This document shows positions 11,594 through 24,493 of a DNA stretch of 64,000 nucleotides, piece by piece. The DNA comes from Rhizobiaceae bacterium. Its GTDB lineage: Bacteria > Pseudomonadota > Alphaproteobacteria > Rhizobiales > Rhizobiaceae. The stretch is taken from contig JAMLJB010000001.1 in assembly GCA_023953835.1 (NCBI GenBank), positions 3,321,501-3,385,500 on the forward strand, read 5' to 3'. A program made the position numbers and the translations under genes. How positions within the stretch are numbered: the first letter of the stretch is position 1; every line of letters starts with the position of its first letter. The notes under the pieces are model-generated. The model was not told where the DNA came from. It did no database searches and worked only from the letters and a program-made list of their open reading frames with translations.

Positions 11594-12541
11594 CTAATCT
11601 CCGTCGCCCGGATCGATTTCCGATTCCTGGTTAGCCACCACTTCGAGTTCGGTGTCCTTGCCGCCCTCGACGAGAATATTGCGCTGGTAAATGTGCTCGC
11701 GGTTCTTGGCGATGACCGTGTAGTTGCCGTTTGCCAGCACCATGGATGCGTATGGCCCCACCTTTTCCGTGACCGGGTCGCCGGATTCAGTGAGGATCGA
11801 CCAGCTCGTATCGGCAAGCGCCTCGCCGCCCGGCTCGCGAACAAGCTTGAGCGTGATTTCAGCCGCCGAATGCTCGACGGCGGCTTCCGTCAGCTTGCCC
11901 GCTTCCACCCTGATGTCGGAGCGCACAACGGCATTGATCGCGCCATAGGTGGAAACGACATGATACATGCCCGCATTCAGCCGAACCACGGTGTTCGGCT
12001 TCACATCCTTGGCGACGAGCGCCCGGTCGCCATTGGCGTCCTGCTTCGTCTCGTAGATCGAAAACCGCAGCTTTTCGCCATGAACCTGCGTTCCGTTCGG
12101 CCCGACCGCGTTCAGCTTGAGCCCGCCGGCATCGAGTACGACAATTTCGGTGGCCGCATTTTTCTGGAGCGTGATGCGCTTGGTTGCGCCAGCGCGCCCG
12201 AAGGCTGCGTGCACCAGATAACTGCCCGGCACGAGTTCGAATGTCGCGCTGCCCCCTTGCGAAGTGGCGACCAGCGGCAGTTTTCCGTCCGGTCCGGGGT
12301 CGGGGCGAAAAACGCGCCAGGTCAATCCGCGCGCGACGTCCTTGCCGTCCTCGGTCAGCTTTGCCTTGAGGTTGAGCGCGATGTTGCCGGTGCGTGCGAC
12401 CGGCCCGGCGGGCACTGCCGGCGCGTAGCCGGATATGCCCGGAAGCCCGGGGTCGGGCATGCCGGGCGAGCTGAAATCCTGCGCTGCGGCGGGCCAGGCC
12501 AGCGCAGCCAGAATCGAAGCAAGAGCAAAATTGTGTGTCAT
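11594..12541 (-). CDS. secreted protein with three beta-sandwich-like repeats, function unknown
   Basis: A 315-residue exported protein with a Sec-type signal peptide (cleavage likely after AWPAAA, residue 20). I do not recognise a named family. Three repeats of about 80-90 residues can be seen. Each ends in a pattern L-x-x-G-x-Y-x-V: LVPGSYLV at 103-110, LNAGMYHV at 188-195 and LANGNYTV at 269-276. This resembles PEGA or carboxypeptidase-regulatory-like domains, which often face the periplasm or cell surface. It is convergent with the lipoprotein gene (3 bp between stops). An ATG four codons upstream (12553) is an alternative start; neither has a well-spaced ribosome binding site. A CTAG-bounded inverted-repeat element starts about 60 bp upstream. 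Confidence 0.72.
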   Translation of the reverse strand: MTHNFALASILAALAWPAAAQDFSSPGMPDPGLPGISGYAPAVPAGPVARTGNIALNLKAKLTEDGKDVARGLTWRVFRPDPGPDGKLPLVATSQGGSATFELVPGSYLVHAAFGRAGATKRITLQKNAATEIVVLDAGGLKLNAVGPNGTQVHGEKLRFSIYETKQDANGDRALVAKDVKPNTVVRLNAGMYHVVSTYGAINAVVRSDIRVEAGKLTEAAVEHSAAEITLKLVREPGGEALADTSWSILTESGDPVTEKVGPYASMVLANGNYTVIAKNREHIYQRNILVEGGKDTELEVVANQESEIDPGDGD

Positions 12542-12602
12542 CCCCTCATACATAGCTTGCCATGAAGCGAGTCGCGATGGCATTTTCATGGCCGATTTCC
12601 AG

Positions 12603-12875
12603 CTAGAGCGTTTCATGGGCAGGTTGAAGCATTCTGCCGGCGACGGTTTGCGGCAAGGCCAAGGGGTTTGTCGCAGGTCGGGCTGGTGGCCCGGACAAGA
12701 CAAAGACCGAAGGATTTGGCGCAAACCGGCCCGGCCCTTCGGGTTTGCGTTTGGCGGGCGCCCACTTCGTCATGCCGCTCGACCGGGCAACCAGCCCGTT
12801 CTTCGCGACCTTCCTTGTGGATCGCCTCGCCAAACGACAAACAGAATGATTCAACCTGCCCATGAAACGCTCTAG
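12603..12875. mobile_element. MITE-like inverted-repeat element 1 (273 bp, CTAG ends)
   Basis: A 273-bp stretch is bounded by 34-bp inverted repeats, 12603-12636 and 12842-12875, with 33 of 34 positions matching. Both ends are CTAG. Inside, further matching inverted blocks (for example CGGGCTGGT and ACCAGCCCG) make the whole element a long imperfect palindrome. It contains no credible gene. CTAG ends with a TA target are known from the IS630/Tc1-mariner group, so a non-autonomous element of that kind is the best guess. It sits between the start of the secreted-protein gene and the nitroreductase gene and fills most of that 387-bp gap. Confidence 0.72.
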
Positions 12876-12928
12876 GCGTACCCCGGTGGGTTCCAAGCCG
12901 TTCCAATCATCTGCCGGGAGAATTCCTG

Positions 12929-13513
12929 TTGAACAAGACTGTCGTCGATTTTCTTTTGACCCGGGTGTCACCGCCCATCCATGAATTGCACGAGCCGGGG
13001 CCGGATGACGCCGCAATCGAAACACTGATCCGCATCGCCTCGCGCGTGCCTGACCACGGGCGGCTGGCCCCGTGGCGGTTCATCGTCTATCGCGGAGAGG
13101 CGCGTCACCGCGTCGGGGAAATGCTGGCCGATCTTGCCGAAAAGCGCGAAGGGCCGCTGGCGGAGGGTCGTCGCAATCAGGAACTGACGCGGTTTTCGCG
13201 TGCGCCCGTGGTGATCGGCGTGGTGTCCGCGCCCAAGGAAAACCCGAAAATTCCGCAATGGGAAATGTTCCTCTCGGGGGGTGCTGCGGCAATGAACCTG
13301 TTGCTTGGCGCAACAGCGCTCGGCTTCGGCGCCAACTGGATCACCAACTGGTATTCCGCCGTGCCGGAAGGCCGCGCAATTCTGGGCCTCGCTCCCGACG
13401 AGCAGGTGGTCGGATTCGTTCACATCGGCACACATACCGGCCGGCAGACAGACCGCCCGCGGCCCGATCCGGAAACGATCTATTCCGACTATTCCGGTCC
13501 GTGGAAGGAATAG
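12929..13513 (+). CDS. nitroreductase family protein
   Basis: A 194-residue FMN-dependent nitroreductase-like protein, which would use NAD(P)H to reduce nitro compounds, quinones or similar acceptors. The family pattern is clear: RIASRVPDHGRLAPWRF near the N-terminus (FMN contacts) and GAAAMNLLLGATALGFGANWIT in the middle. Its length fits the short YdjA-type group. The start is taken as TTG at 12929, with GGGAG 8 nt upstream; no ATG fits. It lies just downstream of the inverted-repeat element and is convergent with the CitE-like gene (12 bp gap). The substrate is unknown. Confidence 0.85.
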   Translation: MNKTVVDFLLTRVSPPIHELHEPGPDDAAIETLIRIASRVPDHGRLAPWRFIVYRGEARHRVGEMLADLAEKREGPLAEGRRNQELTRFSRAPVVIGVVSAPKENPKIPQWEMFLSGGAAAMNLLLGATALGFGANWITNWYSAVPEGRAILGLAPDEQVVGFVHIGTHTGRQTDRPRPDPETIYSDYSGPWKE

Positions 13514-13525
13514 CGCCCGCCGGGC

Positions 13526-14392
13526 TCAGCTATTCAGCCGGGCGAGCAGCCGCTCCGCCAATCGCAGGTGAGGGCGGTCGTACATCTTGCCATCGACGGC
13601 AACGACGCCCGGACTGCCCGCTGCGGCAAAGGCATCGATGATGGCACGGGCCTGCTCGACCGCTTCCGGAGAGGGCGTGAACGCGGCATTGATGACCGGG
13701 ATCTGATCGGGGTGAATGGCCATCTTGGCGGTGAAGCCGTCGCGCTCGGCTTCGCGGCATTCGGCCTCGAAGCCGGCCATGTCGCGAAAGTTCGGAAAAA
13801 CCGTATCGACGGCCGGCACGTCCGCAGCCGCCGACGCCAGCAAGGTCACGGCGCGCGCCAGCCTGAAGGCGTCTGTGTATCGTCCCGAACCGTCGCGTGC
13901 GGTGCGCGCGCCGAGTGCTGCGGACAGGTCCTCGGCGCCCCACGTCAATCCGGACAGGCGCGGGCTGCATCCGGCATAGGTGCCGCCAGTGAAAACTCCT
14001 GCCGGCGTCTCGGTGATGAGCGGGAGGATGCGGATGCCGCCGTCTTCCAGCCCGGCCTCGGCCTCATGGACGCGCAACATGGAGGAGAGTTGCTGCACAT
14101 CCCGTCCGCTGTTGGACTTGGGCAGCATGATGCCATCCGGCGCGGCCTTCACGATTGCGGCGAGATCGGCGTCCGTCATCCCGGTCGCAAGGTCATTCAC
14201 ACGCACATAGATCCGCGCGCGGGTCGCGTGTCGCTCGGCCCCGATGAAGGCGGCGGCTGTCGCGCGCGCGGCTTCCTTGTTGGACAGCGCGACGGAATCC
14301 TCCAGATCGACAATGACGACATCGGCCTCGGAGGCGAAGCCCTTCGCCAGCTTCCGTTCCGAATCGGCGGGTACGAACAAAAGCGAGCGCAT
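13526..14392 (-). CDS. HpcH/HpaI aldolase/citrate lyase family protein (CitE-like)
   Basis: A 288-residue TIM-barrel enzyme of the CitE/malyl-CoA lyase group. The N-terminus MRSLLFVPADSERKLAK is the standard CoA-binding start, and DVVIVDLEDSVA supplies metal-site acidic residues. LTWGAEDLSAALG and KMAIHPDQIPVIN are further family blocks. Such enzymes cleave or hydrolyse (3S)-malyl-CoA, beta-methylmalyl-CoA or citramalyl-CoA. Its start overlaps the stop of the upstream MaoC gene (TGATG), so the two are translationally coupled. A CitE-like lyase or thioesterase beside a MaoC hydratase suggests processing of a C4-C5 dicarboxyl-CoA compound; the exact reaction is inferred. Confidence 0.88.
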   Translation of the reverse strand: MRSLLFVPADSERKLAKGFASEADVVIVDLEDSVALSNKEAARATAAAFIGAERHATRARIYVRVNDLATGMTDADLAAIVKAAPDGIMLPKSNSGRDVQQLSSMLRVHEAEAGLEDGGIRILPLITETPAGVFTGGTYAGCSPRLSGLTWGAEDLSAALGARTARDGSGRYTDAFRLARAVTLLASAAADVPAVDTVFPNFRDMAGFEAECREAERDGFTAKMAIHPDQIPVINAAFTPSPEAVEQARAIIDAFAAAGSPGVVAVDGKMYDRPHLRLAERLLARLNS

Positions 14393-14844
14393 CAGGTGGG
14401 CCGCTTCTTCAACATGGCCTGCCGTATCGTCCTCGCGACCAGAACCCCGTCCTGATTGTAGGCGCGATGCTCGAATTCTACGATCCCGCGGTCATTCTTC
14501 GATTTCGACTCGCGCACGGATTTGACCTCGGTCTCCACCCTGATCGTGTCGCCATGAAAGACCGGATGCGGGAACACGGTGTCGGTCATGCCGAGATTGG
14601 CAAGGGTCGTTCCAAGAGTCGTGTCGTGCACCGAAATGCCGATCATCAGCCCGAGCGTGAACAGGGAATTGACCAACGGCCTGCCCCATTCGCTCTTGGA
14701 GGCAAAATCGAAGTCTATATGCAACGGCTGGGGATTGAGCGTCATGACCGAAAACAGCATGTTGTCGCTTTCGGTGACGGTCTTCGTCAGGCCGTGCCTG
14801 AAAACCTGTCCTGTCGAAAATTCCTCAAGATAAAGCCCGGCCAT
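14392..14844 (-). CDS. MaoC family hot-dog-fold dehydratase
   Basis: A 150-residue protein of the MaoC-like (R)-specific enoyl-CoA hydratase family. The typical ending of the catalytic segment can be seen in MTLNPQPLHIDFDFA (Asn/His region), and HPVFHGDTIRVETEV is a family block. In-frame ATGs exist at 14880, 14862 and 14844; 14844 is chosen because AGGAGG lies 5 nt upstream of it. The stop overlaps the start of the CitE-like gene. Mesaconyl-CoA hydratase is a related two-domain enzyme, so a hydratase step acting with the CitE-like partner is plausible but not shown. Confidence 0.87.
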   Translation of the reverse strand: MAGLYLEEFSTGQVFRHGLTKTVTESDNMLFSVMTLNPQPLHIDFDFASKSEWGRPLVNSLFTLGLMIGISVHDTTLGTTLANLGMTDTVFPHPVFHGDTIRVETEVKSVRESKSKNDRGIVEFEHRAYNQDGVLVARTIRQAMLKKRPT

Positions 14845-14994
14845 TCGATCCTCCTGTGCCATTCCATAGGCGCGGGACACGGCCGCCGCAAGGTCGGCCG
14901 CTGACTTCAGTGCTGGTTAATAAACATGGTGAACGCTTCGTAAACCATTTCCCGCATAGCGTCAGTGTGTGGCTTGCGGAGGTTACGATTCCCT

Positions 14995-16110
14995 ATGATT
15001 GTCGAGCATTTCTTGAAATGGGTAAAGACGGCGGCAGCTTCGGAGCGGGCTGCAGCGGCGGCTGCGCTGGCCCGCACCTACATCAATAGCGACATTCCCA
15101 TGGAGGACCGTTGCGCCGCCGATGCCGCGCTGACGCTCCTGCTGGACGACCCTGCCGTGAAGGTGCGCATGGCGCTCGCCGAGGTGCTTTCGATGAGCCG
15201 GGTCGCGCCGCCGCAGGTGGTCAGCGCGCTGGCGCATGACCAACCGGAAGTCGCCGAGCTGGTGCTGGCGCGCTCCCCTTTGCTCTCCGATGGCGACCTG
15301 ATCGAACGCGTGCGTGTCGGCGAAGCCGCCATTCAGGCGGTGATCGCAGACCGTCCGGTCGTCTCGATGTCTGTCTGCGCGGCTGTCGCCGAGATGGGCG
15401 ACGCCGATTCCTGCATCGTTTTGCTCAAGAATGATGGCGCGGATATCGCGGAACTCAGCTTCAAGCGCATCACCGAGCGCTTCGGCGGGGTGTGTCGCGT
15501 GCGCGAAGTTCTCATTGCGGATCGTCGGCTGCCCGCCGAGTGTCGCCATGAATTGCTGGTGCGACTCGGTGAAGCCTTGATGGAATCGCCGCTGGTGCGG
15601 GCCATTTTCCACGGCGAGCGGGCAGGGCGGGTCTTGAAGGACGCCTGGCTGAAAGCATCGGTCACGCTGATCGACCGGACGCGCACGTCGGAATTTCCGG
15701 CCCTTGTCGAGCATTTGCGGCTGCGCGGGGATTTGACGCCGCGCTTCCTCATCCGCTCGCTGGCGCATGGCAAGGTCGATTTCTTTGGTGCTGCGCTCGT
15801 CGCCCTGACCGGATATCCGCATGAGCGCGTCAGCGAACTCATCGCCAACGGATTTGACAGCGCGCTTCATGCCCTGTTCCGAAAGGCCGGACTTCCCGAA
15901 CGCACTTTCGAGGTGATGGAGCGGGCGTTGAAAATCTGGCGCGAGGTGGCGCGCGGCAAGCTGGTTGCCGGGGCGCAGGAAGCAAGCTGGCTCATGCTGA
16001 AGGAACTCGGCGATGACGGCAGCGATCTGGCGGCGATGCTGAAATCGGTGCATCTGGAAGCGTTGCGCGTGAACGCGCGCGGACATGCGCTTGCGATAAG
16101 GGCCGCCTGA
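14995..16110 (+). CDS. DUF2336 domain-containing protein
   Basis: A 371-residue soluble protein of the DUF2336 family, found mainly in Alphaproteobacteria and of unknown function. The sequence is rich in short amphipathic helices in pairs, for example LLLDDPAVKVRMALAEVL and ALAHDQPEVAELVLAR, which look like HEAT-type repeats and suggest a protein-binding scaffold. The ATG at 14995 is used; GGAGG lies 12 nt upstream, somewhat far. A GTG at 14965 is an alternative start. It is convergent with parE, with only 4 bp between the stops. Confidence 0.82.
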   Translation: MIVEHFLKWVKTAAASERAAAAAALARTYINSDIPMEDRCAADAALTLLLDDPAVKVRMALAEVLSMSRVAPPQVVSALAHDQPEVAELVLARSPLLSDGDLIERVRVGEAAIQAVIADRPVVSMSVCAAVAEMGDADSCIVLLKNDGADIAELSFKRITERFGGVCRVREVLIADRRLPAECRHELLVRLGEALMESPLVRAIFHGERAGRVLKDAWLKASVTLIDRTRTSEFPALVEHLRLRGDLTPRFLIRSLAHGKVDFFGAALVALTGYPHERVSELIANGFDSALHALFRKAGLPERTFEVMERALKIWREVARGKLVAGAQEASWLMLKELGDDGSDLAAMLKSVHLEALRVNARGHALAIRAA

Positions 16111-16114
16111 CCGC

Positions 16115-18166
16115 TCAGATATCGAGCGCGTCTTCCTGTGCGAATTCGGCGCGCTCCTGAATGAAGCGGAAGCGGGCATCGGCCTTGGTTCCCATCAGAG
16201 CGTCGACGCTCTTGCGGGTTTCGGCCTCGTCCTCGATGACTTCGACGCGCAGCAGCGTGCGCTTCCTGGGGTCCATCGTGGTTTCCTTGAGCTGGCTGGC
16301 CAGCATCTCGCCAAGGCCCTTGAAGCGCCCGATCTCCACCTTGCCGCGCCCGGTGAACTCCGTTTTCAGCAGTTCATCCTTGTGCGCGTCGTCGCGGGCA
16401 TACATCGTCTTGCCGCCCTGGCTGATCTTGTAGAGCGGCGGAACGGCCATGAAGAGATGGCCACCACGGATGAGCGCCGGCATTTCCTGATAGAAGAACG
16501 TGATAAGCAGCGAGGCGATGTGAGCGCCGTCCACATCCGCGTCGGTCATGACGATTACGCGGTCGTAGCGCAGGTCCTCGTCGCGGTACTTTGTCCGCGT
16601 GCCGCAGCCAAGCGCCTGAATCAGATCGGAAATCTGCTGGTTGCCCGCGAGCTTGTCATTGCCCGCGCTGGCGACGTTCAGGATCTTTCCGCGCAGTGGC
16701 AGCACGGCCTGCATCTGCCGGTCACGCGCCTGCTTTGCCGATCCACCCGCCGAATCGCCCTCGACGATGAAAAGCTCGGCGCCCGCCGCCGCATTCTGCG
16801 AGCAATCGGCAAGCTTGCCCGGCAATCGCAATTTCCGCACGGCGGATTTTCGGCTGACTTCCTTTTCCTGCCTGCGCCGCACGCGCTCGTCCGCGCGCGC
16901 AATCACCCATTCCAGAAGCTTCGACGCCTCCTGCGGATTGTCGGCAAGCCAGTGATCGAAAGCGTCCCGTACCGCGCCCTCCACAATGCGGATTGCCTCA
17001 AGCGTGGCGAGGCGGTCCTTGGTCTGGCCGACGAATTCCGGCTCGCGGATAAAGACGGACAACATGCCCGCCGCCGAAATCATCACATCCTCGCTGGTGA
17101 CGATCGAGGCGCGCTTGTTTCCGGTCAGGTCGGCATAGGCGCGCAGGCCGCGCATCAGCACATTGCGGAAACCCGTTTCGTGGGTGCCGCCCTCATGTGT
17201 CGGAATGGTGTTGCAGTAGGAATTGAGAAAACCGTCGCCGCCATACCAGGTCACGGCCCATTCCACGGAACCATGTCCGCCCTGCCGTTCGCTCTTGCCG
17301 GAGAAAATCTCGCGCGTGACCTGGAACTCGTCGCCGAGCGAAGCCGCCAGATAGTCCTTGAGGCCGCCGGGAAAATGGAACTCGGCCTTCGGCGGGGTAG
17401 GGTCCTTGTCCTTGAGCAGCGATGGATCGCAGGACCACCTGATGTTGACGCCCCCGAAAAGATAGGCCTTCGAGCGCGCCATGCGATAGAGGCGCGCCGG
17501 TTCGAACGCCGCGTTCTTGCCGAAGATTTCGGCGTCCGGGTGGAACCGCACGCGCGTTCCGCGCCTGTTGTGGACATCTCCAAGCTTTTCAAGCTTGCCG
17601 ATGGGGATGCCGCGCGTGAAGCGCTGGCGGTATAGCTGGCGTCCGCGCGCCACCTCCACCTCCAGCAGGTCGGAAAGCGCGTTCACCACCGACACGCCGA
17701 CGCCGTGCAGGCCGCCGGAGGTCTCATAGACCTTCGAGTCGAACTTCCCGCCCGCATGCAGGGTGGTCATGATGACTTCGAGCGCCGATTTGTCCTTGAA
17801 TTTCGGATGCGGGTCGACCGGAATGCCGCGACCATTGTCCGTGACCGTGAGAAACCCTTCCGCATCGAGTTCGACCTCGATGAATGTCGCGTGCCCGGCA
17901 ACGGCCTCGTCCATCGAATTGTCGATCACCTCGGCAAACAGGTGGTGGAGGGCCTTTTCGTCCGTTCCGCCGATATACATTCCGGGGCGGCGCCGAACCG
18001 GCTCCAAGCCCTCGAGAACCTCGATGTCGGCTGCGCTGTAGCTTTCGCTGCCGTCCTTCGCCTGCGCGGCGGTCTTGCGCACGGCCTGCACGATGGTGTC
18101 GGCCTTGCGCTGGGCGGCGCGGCCCGTCTCGTCGAGCTCGGAGAAAAGATCGTTGGACTGGTCCAT
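16115..18166 (-). CDS. parE: DNA topoisomerase IV subunit B
   Basis: ATPase subunit of topoisomerase IV, which with ParC separates daughter chromosomes; 683 residues. The GHKL ATP site is complete (EVIDNSMDEAVAG, DNGRGIPV, GGLHGVGVSVVNALS). The TOPRIM domain shows EGDSAGGSAKQARDR and TDADVDGAHI, and the C-terminus has FKGLGEM. It reads as ParE rather than GyrB because it is short and lacks the GyrB tail. The ATG at 18166 is used; an ATG three codons upstream (18175) is equally possible, as neither has a clear ribosome binding site. A 271-bp inverted-repeat element begins about 35 bp upstream, so parE may be transcribed from or through it. Confidence 0.93.
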   Translation of the reverse strand: MDQSNDLFSELDETGRAAQRKADTIVQAVRKTAAQAKDGSESYSAADIEVLEGLEPVRRRPGMYIGGTDEKALHHLFAEVIDNSMDEAVAGHATFIEVELDAEGFLTVTDNGRGIPVDPHPKFKDKSALEVIMTTLHAGGKFDSKVYETSGGLHGVGVSVVNALSDLLEVEVARGRQLYRQRFTRGIPIGKLEKLGDVHNRRGTRVRFHPDAEIFGKNAAFEPARLYRMARSKAYLFGGVNIRWSCDPSLLKDKDPTPPKAEFHFPGGLKDYLAASLGDEFQVTREIFSGKSERQGGHGSVEWAVTWYGGDGFLNSYCNTIPTHEGGTHETGFRNVLMRGLRAYADLTGNKRASIVTSEDVMISAAGMLSVFIREPEFVGQTKDRLATLEAIRIVEGAVRDAFDHWLADNPQEASKLLEWVIARADERVRRRQEKEVSRKSAVRKLRLPGKLADCSQNAAAGAELFIVEGDSAGGSAKQARDRQMQAVLPLRGKILNVASAGNDKLAGNQQISDLIQALGCGTRTKYRDEDLRYDRVIVMTDADVDGAHIASLLITFFYQEMPALIRGGHLFMAVPPLYKISQGGKTMYARDDAHKDELLKTEFTGRGKVEIGRFKGLGEMLASQLKETTMDPRKRTLLRVEVIEDEAETRKSVDALMGTKADARFRFIQERAEFAQEDALDI

Positions 18167-18201
18167 GTGTGCCATTTCGTTCAGATCAACAGGCCCTGAC
18201 C

Positions 18202-18472
18202 CTAGGTCGTAGTGACGATTTAACGGTTCGCTGCGTTGGAGCGGAAAAGACCGCTGAACAGGAGAAAAGCGCAAGGCGGTGTTGACCACCGTCGAGCATT
18301 TTCGACGCATTCAGCGGCCTTTTCTGCCCAACCCCGGAGGGGCCGCGCCGAAATCGGCCATTTCTTCGTCACGCGTCGTCGAATATGCGCTGCATATCCT
18401 TCCTCCTTCTTCCTCGAACTGACCAATTTCATCTGCGGCGCAGCAAATCGTTGAATCGTCACTACGACCTAG
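18202..18472. mobile_element. MITE-like inverted-repeat element 2 (271 bp, CTAG ends)
   Basis: A 271-bp stretch is bounded by 34-bp inverted repeats, 18202-18235 and 18439-18472, with 31 of 34 matching; the first 19 bases, CTAGGTCGTAGTGACGATT, are identical. Like the element at 12603 it starts and ends with CTAG, is nearly the same length, and is weakly palindromic inside, but its terminal sequence is different. No transposase is encoded. It lies in the region between parE and the diguanylate cyclase gene. The rest of that gap (18473-18696) holds an AT-rich stretch at about 18540-18640 that could carry the cyclase promoter, without a convincing -35/-10 pair. Confidence 0.72.
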
Positions 18473-18696
18473 TGCGAATCAGTTGAGCAATACTGCCATT
18501 TCGGGGCGGTACACGACAAGCGTTCCGGTTCTGTTCGTCAATTGCGGCTTGTCAAACGTAAACGATATTTTGACCAAAAGGATAAAATTTTCCTTGTTGG
18601 TCCATGTTTCTGTAAACGTGACTGGATTACCTTTGGTTGCGCGCGTGCGAAAGCCGTTCGCGAAGGTGCGCGGCGGCGCGAGTGCGGAACGAAAAA

Positions 18697-19851
18697 ATGG
18701 ACCTTGACTACGTTTCACTTCTGTTGGCCGCTGCGCTTTCAGGTTCGTTCCTGTTTGTCGCGCTGCTGGTAGTGTGGATACCGGCACGAGAGCACAGACA
18801 TCTCGTGTCAAGCGCGGCGGGCGTGGCGGCGCTCGTCGCGCATGTCATGTTCTACTGGGCCTATGCCCACAACGCCAGCACCTGGATCGCCTGCATCATG
18901 CTCGCGCTTCTGCCGGCTGGCATGGCGCTTGTGCTGGCTTCCGCGCGCCAGCTCTACGGCATCTCGAAAGGGTTGCACGACTCGCTTTGGCTGGCCGCCA
19001 GCTCTGCTTTGGGTACGACGGTGCTCGTGCTGGCCGGCGCCGATGGCGCGGCCTTCATGCTGGCCTATTTCATGACCGCTCTGCTGCTGGTGCTGACGGG
19101 ATTGATCCACTGGCGATACAGGGCCGAGGCGCCTGCACTGATGACCCTGGTCGCGACGCTTTTCGTGCTTTGCGCCGCGTCCTTCGCCGCGTGCGGCGCG
19201 GTACTCCTGTTCAACGGCCAATGGCAGATCGGCCATGTTCCCGACAATTGGGCCGAGCGCGTGAACATCGTCATTTCCGTCGCATGCATGACCGGACTGG
19301 GCGGCCTGCTCTTGACCCTTCACAACATCAGGGCGGGCGTTCAGCACGAATCCGAGGCGATGCGCGATTCGCTTACCGGGCTGATGAACCGCCGGGCCAT
19401 GCAGACGCTGCACGCCGACAAGCAATTCGGACGTTTCACCGCCGTTGCCATGTTCGATCTCGATCACTTCAAGCGCACCAACGACCTGTTCGGTCATGCG
19501 GTGGGCGACGAGGCGCTGAGGGTGTTCGGCGCGGTGATGAATGCCCATACCCGCCCGCACGACCATTCCTTCCGGCTGGGCGGCGAGGAATTTGCGATGA
19601 TTGTCTCCCGGGTCAGCCGGGATCAGGTGCACGCCATCGCCGACAGCATCTCGCGCGAATATGCCGAGCGCGAGATCGCCACCGACCTCGGGCCGGTCCG
19701 CTGCACGGTCAGCGTCGGCATCAGCTTCGGTTCCCCGACAGGATCGAGCCTCATCGAAATCCTGACGGATGCCGACCGCGCGCTGTACGCGGCCAAGCGC
19801 GCGGGCCGCAACCGCGTGGTGTTCTTCGAGCAAAGCAGGAAGGCGGGCTGA
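18697..19851 (+). CDS. membrane-bound diguanylate cyclase (GGDEF)
   Basis: A 384-residue enzyme predicted to make cyclic di-GMP from two GTP. The first ~210 residues form about six or seven membrane segments. The GGDEF domain follows, with the active-site motif GGEEF at 295-299 and an intact inhibitory I-site RPHD at 286-289, exactly five residues before it, so product inhibition is expected. DSLTGLMNRRAM and FDLDHFKRTND are standard family blocks. There is no EAL domain. The ATG at 18697 is used. The stop codon lies in the loop of a terminator-like hairpin shared with the convergent gcvP. Confidence 0.92.
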   Translation: MDLDYVSLLLAAALSGSFLFVALLVVWIPAREHRHLVSSAAGVAALVAHVMFYWAYAHNASTWIACIMLALLPAGMALVLASARQLYGISKGLHDSLWLAASSALGTTVLVLAGADGAAFMLAYFMTALLLVLTGLIHWRYRAEAPALMTLVATLFVLCAASFAACGAVLLFNGQWQIGHVPDNWAERVNIVISVACMTGLGGLLLTLHNIRAGVQHESEAMRDSLTGLMNRRAMQTLHADKQFGRFTAVAMFDLDHFKRTNDLFGHAVGDEALRVFGAVMNAHTRPHDHSFRLGGEEFAMIVSRVSRDQVHAIADSISREYAEREIATDLGPVRCTVSVGISFGSPTGSSLIEILTDADRALYAAKRAGRNRVVFFEQSRKAG

Positions 19852-24208: not shown

Positions 24209-24392
24209 CCCCTCTGTCGGAAGCCTGAGAGACTCGCGAAACCTGAACAATGCCAGCCTCGCTTACACCTTCGGCGCGGAACTTTCGTTCCGACTTTCCA
24301 GAGTGTCATTACCGGCAACGGTTCTTTTGCCTGAGAGATTTCGGGCTATTTCACCTTCGGCGGCAGCTTGCGCTGCTCTCTCCCGCATACCG
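24209..24392 (-). ncRNA. tandem glycine riboswitch (two aptamers) upstream of gcvT
   Basis: Read on the minus strand, the gcvT leader holds two copies of the glycine aptamer signature. Aptamer 1 (about 24317-24390) has GGGAGAGAG, then CCGAAGGTG, then ATCTCTCAGGCAAAAG. Aptamer 2 (about 24209-24305) has GGAAAG, GCCGAAGGTGTAAGC, then GTCTCTCAGGCTTCCGACAGAGG. This is the known tandem, glycine-sensing class that turns on gcv genes. No clear terminator follows. Instead CTCTCAG of aptamer 2 (24225-24231) can pair with CTGAGGG of the gcvT ribosome binding site region (24163-24169), which suggests control of translation. Confidence 0.92.
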
Positions 24393-24493
24393 GCAGGCCA
24401 AAATCCGATAGCAGACTCGGGCCTCTGACAATTTGCTAAATAACCCATGACCGACATCTTGTCACCACCCTGCGACACAGATTGCGATGAGCC

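Follow-up and report, generated by a model that had tools for sequence, protein, structure and literature searches.

A MITE upstream of parE in a Rhizobiaceae bacterium has a paired-hairpin body that recurs with different transposon ends in Alphaproteobacteria and other classes

In this study, a 271-bp element running from CTAG to CTAG was identified at positions 18202-18472 of the window, that is, the whole stretch of 64,000 nucleotides analysed (Rhizobiaceae bacterium, assembly GCA_023953835.1, contig JAMLJB010000001.1, 3,321,501 to 3,385,500); the length becomes 265 bp between the TA dinucleotides if TA is the target duplication. The element lies in a divergent intergenic region, with parE, coding for DNA topoisomerase IV subunit B on the minus strand (16115-18175; TIGR01055, 752 bits), on one side and a GGDEF-type gene on the plus strand on the other. 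Its left (18202-18235, plus strand) and right (18439-18472, minus strand) terminal inverted repeats agree at 31 of 34 positions (91% over 34 nt), and the inverted repeat as a whole reaches 46 nt at 83% identity. A neighbouring element of 273 bp, here called family 1, occupies 12603-12875, at a spacing of 5.6 kb, and has different terminal sequences. The coordinates, the CTAG at both ends, the 34-bp repeats, the two lengths, the spacing and the identity of parE had been given correctly by a first-pass annotation made from the sequence; the hairpin pair, and the solo end beside parE described below, go beyond it. The body of the 271-bp element is built from a single hairpin of about 100 nt in two inverted copies, module 1 at 18230-18344 (plus strand; 117 bits with covariance model R2, in whose training set it is included, and covariation) and module 2 at 18330-18444 (minus strand). 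They are arranged around a central 15-nt palindrome at 18330-18344, which is common to both module matches and predicted to form a helix of its own. In module 1 a non-canonical block, AGGAG at 18260-18264 facing CGACG at 18303-18307 (both plus strand), is conserved across modules.

Three full copies of the 18202 family, 98.5-100% identical, are present in the genome (4.63 Mb, four contigs), together with one deleted copy of 164 bp that has lost one hairpin, while the genomes of two congeners (G001 and G002) yielded nothing matching the element. The predicted fold of the 271 nt has an energy of -135 kcal/mol, 10 SD below dinucleotide shuffles, much of this excess coming from the terminal repeats. 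Near-identical copies and fold energy together place the element far beyond chance. TA flanks both sides of the copies at L086 and L055, and only TA is duplicated, because some copies have TTAG or CTAC at one end. The element is short and non-coding (an open frame in some copies having been judged by eye only), has terminal inverted repeats, dispersed near-identical copies and a target duplication, and is faced by empty sites, the exact empty junction at parE being blurred by a solo end of a third element type. The sequence at 18202-18472 is thus a MITE, a non-autonomous transposable element, and has multiplied recently in the species. Family 1 has 16 full-length genome matches, including the window copy.

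The first 23 nt of the 18202 element are the ends of ISNGR9-like insertion sequences (ISs) of the IS5 family, which insert at TA within CTAG or TTAG. Four plasmid records contain a transposase gene annotated as 'IS5 family' or 'ISNGR9 family' and flanked by CTAG and the 18202-type repeat or a close variant, and among the 28 stretches with an 18202-type end in a scan of named genomes, five show the two ends separated by 789-841 bp, the spacing of a complete IS. The transposase halves of ISs with such ends match NF033580 and PF13340/PF01609; these ISs may belong to the IS427 subgroup of IS5, the match itself being to 'IS5 family' NF033580 alone. Like the element, ISNGR9-like ISs (e.g. on pNGR234a, NC_000914.2) have ends CTAGGTCGTRGTGACGATTTAACG and insert at CTAG/TTAG, but they are about 850 bp long, encode the transposase in two frames without room for hairpin modules, and are absent from this genome. 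Autonomous ISs with the hairpins in subterminal position were considered as a source and set aside, as inspection by eye left no room for hairpins in the ISNGR9-like ISs. No IS with 18202-type ends was recovered from this genome; because all nine genome matches to the end are MITE copies or a solo end, the mobiliser of the family either has gone from this genome or was never resident. The solo 23-nt end lies at G000:C1:1154898-1154920 (L054 2899-2921), between two convergent open frames. A plasmid search with the whole 18202 element gave no match. For the 34-mer end of family 1, 136 plasmid records, mostly from Rhizobium, match at 80-90% and a single one at 99% or above; no IS was identified from these matches. 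Inspection by eye of the open frames at seven loci with a single module match revealed nothing transposase-like.

When relatives were searched with the whole element, its inside matched elements with different ends. Twelve elements from 11 genomes have a common fold of two large hairpins and a small central one, with two-sided changes in 60 of 85 predicted pairs. A covariance model built from hairpin 1 alone (R1) matches module 2 on the opposite strand, with 41.5 bits in the window (E 5e-7) and up to 71.6 bits in other elements, and the body is for this reason described as an inverted pair of one module. It should be mentioned that the hairpin matches itself on the reverse strand with up to 33.5 bits, thus inverted matches of 24-33 bits (G199, G278 and G251) are weak on orientation. 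Model R2 was derived from a MAFFT alignment (A7) of both hairpins, not fitted to structure, from which family 1 was excluded; it keeps 30 of 47 hits, the weak ones, echoes on the reverse strand and modules carrying inserts having been removed. Among its 32 pairs, 29 have changes on both sides, the share of paired cells is 92.0%, against 64.8% in shuffled (0/500) and at most 48.1% in slid controls, and the covariation score is 0.709, against 0.224 and at most 0.180, respectively. An earlier alignment that included the family-1 element (A2) was left unused due to the large gaps placed in it. For a further alignment (A8), which comprises 103 modules from 62 loci, none of them used in training, the score is 0.890, although this alignment was fitted to the model and its pair counts lean toward it. 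In the same 103 modules the non-canonical block reads A.G in 87, G-C in 101 and G.A in 86, followed by C.A in 50 or A.G in 41, and its last pair is G-C or A-U. This mismatch block, with its internal A.G/C.A covariation, is the best-conserved part of the module. Palindrome correction by template switching can give some compensatory changes without selection; a conserved, covarying block of mismatches is hard to explain in that way. Rfam 15 returned nothing at the gathering cut-off for either window element, in a scan of the window and in E-value mode over 12500-18600, and at 20 loci it gave only weak sub-threshold matches of miRNA type, at two loci, which we judge to be chance. A glycine riboswitch is present in the window at 24309-24395 (minus strand, 58.6 bits).

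Model R2, in whose training family 1 had no part, also matches both halves of the 273-bp element when run with filters off: module 1 at 12632-12746 on the plus strand (29.0 bits, E 3.9e-5) and module 2 at 12732-12846 on the minus strand (26.4 bits, E 1.5e-4), modest scores with rough E-values. The register and the 15-nt overlap are those of the 271-bp element, and the next unrelated match over 12000-19000 scores 9.0 bits. With default filters, nine of 21 family-1 loci match at E<=0.016, while R1 failed to match the family-1 element in the window. As R2 was trained without family 1 and recognises each half in the orientation and register expected, the model unites the two window families in one superfamily with different ends. 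A third element type in the genome is represented by two 270-bp elements, at C1:1910 kb and C1:2683 kb (L249 and L283).

Genomes with the R2 module number 89 of 397 in the order (E<=1e-3), 30 of 376 in the class and 43 of 388 in the phylum (both E<=1e-4), and 27 of the 43 from the phylum sample lie outside the class; the three samples overlap, and as nine candidates were scored per genome, copy numbers are lower bounds. At the 62 loci, which are best matches or were picked by hand among the matches listed, both modules are present in 41, always plus on the left and minus on the right and never in the reverse order, and a single module in 21; the offset between modules is 92-104 nt in 40 of the 41 pairs. 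Ends could be resolved for 30 of 37 elements, the two from the window and those at 35 loci, and 22 of the 30 measure 270-274 bp. The equal length of the two window families follows from the conserved paired body. For the common length and architecture the first-pass annotation had offered either a size constraint or one mobilising system with different end specificities. The former is supported by the same hairpin pair and register and by this length distribution. The latter is not supported as worded, the 18202 ends being ISNGR9-like and other subfamilies having other ends. Palindromic inserts bring three elements, L094, L098 and L105, to 337-351 bp, with one palindrome common to the last two, and single-hairpin derivatives of about 155-195 bp occur at L095, L097, L055, L176 and L179, as if one module had been lost cleanly. 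Exchange of ends was observed in four pairs of elements, involving two end types, in which bodies are 79-88% identical and ends 34-39% identical; in two pairs with a common end type the ends are 89-93% identical. Both ends change together in the exchanged elements. On these comparisons it is the body that persists, and not the ends. Elements with this body form a superfamily that varies little in length (about 272 bp), has many different transposon ends and is found in Alphaproteobacteria and other classes of the phylum.

How does the element compare with known repeats? Bacterial MITEs are usually viewed as the leftovers of one insertion sequence and are defined by their ends; in this superfamily it is the ends that vary, whereas the body is retained between distant lineages with little change in length and with conservation of structure that includes a non-canonical motif. 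BIMEs, or REP pairs, are inverted pairs of imperfect hairpins, often at the 3' ends of genes and linked to RAYT, and are not known to have IS5-type ends. As far as the excerpts of PMC2229807 and PMC10969869 used here describe them, Correia/NEMIS, ERIC and RUP resemble the element in being short and non-coding, with terminal repeats, TA ends and a fold predicted to be stable. Unlike MITEs in general, as portrayed in those excerpts, the element has an inverted pair of one hairpin and a covarying non-canonical block, and is common to different ends and to different bacterial classes. The CIR repeats of Caulobacter and Brucella are likewise alphaproteobacterial, with two stem-loop arms and a linker, but by the definition given in the portion of PMC2229807 drawn on they are about 110 bp, have no terminal inverted repeats and conserve GANTC. 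The element, at 271 bp with 34-bp terminal repeats, falls outside that definition, and GANTC occurs once per window element, in the end region. REP units measure 20-40 bp according to the excerpt of PMC3733652, against about 100 nt for the module, which does not fit such a unit. By the features tested, the element is neither a CIR repeat nor a REP. The R0 and R2 repeats of Pseudomonas fluorescens are also intergenic, with ends identical to those of resident ISs and a tail-repeat-tail bias, a tail-to-tail placement bias being reported for Pseudomonas repeats (PMC2718517, in the part available to us); they are 89 and 110 bp with one hairpin, and that part describes no common body with different ends. 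The superfamily is not described in the open-licence literature covered, in the portions of it that were at hand (including PMC2267715, PMC10969869, PMC2680597, PMC2229807 and PMC2718517); an earlier account elsewhere, e.g. in subscription journals, is possible.

All 80 ends of 40 elements begin with TAG when read inward (L027, whose right end is not CTA, was dropped from this count). An open frame of 100 codons or more terminates at 38 of these ends, compared with 14 and 17 in the two shifted frames, these being predicted frames and not confirmed genes. Several copies of family 1 fit precisely between two convergent frames, each of which has its stop codon at one end of the element. The choice of CTAG/TTAG as target can by itself explain this placement at stop codons. 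The reading we prefer, with a probability of roughly 60%, is that of a MITE with ISNGR9-like ends and a body of the paired-hairpin superfamily, in which the hairpin is under selection, most likely as an RNA 3'-end element. Under this reading selection would act on the hairpin, putatively as RNA. As the two copies are inverted, the element may work in either orientation: a transcript arriving from either side would meet the forward hairpin first. The hairpin function is thus most likely orientation-independent and exerted at transcript ends. Insertion would tend to place the element directly after TAG stop codons, where it might serve as a bidirectional 3'-end hairpin in the processing, protection or insulation of transcripts. 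Such a role would make insertions tolerable, so that the body could persist and be re-packaged in the ends of different IS5-type elements; the copy at parE would have landed in a leader instead of a transcript end. A bolder version, which we put forward tentatively and at odds somewhat below even, sees a phylum-wide mobile structured RNA, with the inverted hairpin pair as the lasting heritable unit, repeatedly re-packaged in IS5-type ends, as a portable two-way transcript-end element whose covarying block is recognised by a host protein.

The element could instead be a purely selfish MITE whose hairpins have no role for the host or as RNA, their structure being kept by DNA processes (template-switch palindrome correction, cruciform tolerance) or by the binding of host or transposase proteins during transposition. 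Ends shared with live IS5-type ISs and near-identical copies agree with it, target choice would account for the placement, and long palindromes are substrates for correction. Yet correction should erase mismatches, and it is precisely the mismatch block that is best conserved and covaries between A.G and C.A; besides, the same body with unrelated ends is not tied to one transposase, and we regard a purely selfish element as unlikely. It is still less probable that the active form of the hairpins is single-stranded DNA, which a nuclease or an HUH-type enzyme would recognise in the course of replication, with the IS5-like ends as a second route; the model here is REP hairpins, which are proposed to be recognised by RAYTs. 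The inverted pairs of imperfect hairpins do resemble REP pairs, and a block so asymmetric and conserved might bind a protein in DNA no less than in RNA, but the ends of the element are IS5-type with TA duplication and REPs, at the size given in the excerpt of PMC3733652, are far smaller. The suggestion that the module is a small-protein gene arose from copies at L086, L087 and L088, in which, by eye, a purine-rich, Shine-Dalgarno-like stretch is followed on the reverse strand by an ATG and a frame of about 58 codons. Given that the frame of the window copy stops after eight codons, also by eye, and that the conserved parts are structural, we hold it to be very improbable and rejected it on reading by eye alone.

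A separate question is what the copy at parE does there. The first-pass annotation had placed it 35 bp from the start codon, which agrees with an ATG at 18164-18166 and becomes 26 bp if translation starts from the ATG at 18173-18175. It had also proposed that the element supplies the promoter or leader of the gene, a proposal that would fail if the element were ancient and fixed at parE. That is not what was found: the parE leaders of G001 and G002 are without it, and the element was matched in none of the seven parE loci compared. Because the 28 nt between the element and parE (18178-18205, minus strand, two mismatches) are a solo end of the third element type, full copies of which exist elsewhere in the genome, this leader has been struck by elements at least twice. 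On the side of the element away from parE, a block at 18475-18540 (minus strand) is conserved upstream of parE in G001, with 82% identity over 66 nt; since this conservation between species lies beyond the element, the parE promoter is probably in 18475-18540, and the element would form most of the leader. In a scan for promoters and terminators no terminator-like site was found, and the single promoter-like match, at 18587-18616, is outside the element. The leader part of the proposal thus holds insofar as the element putatively sits in the leader, while no promoter was detected inside it. That parE owes its promoter or leader, or a change in either, to the element is in our opinion doubtful: the position of the element so close to the start codon, the element-free leaders of the congeners and a fold of such stability, which should matter in a leader, speak for an effect, but the conserved block and the only promoter-like match are both on the far side.

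These results turn the vague question of whether MITE bodies do anything into a testable one. The two inverted copies in each element offer a clean test of orientation, and the covarying non-canonical block leads to the prediction of a host factor that recognises it. In addition, the covariance model can be used to annotate intergenic regions in many genomes; at L242 (1501-1615), a module lies between the apparent cas9 and cas1, as judged by eye, of a CRISPR locus.
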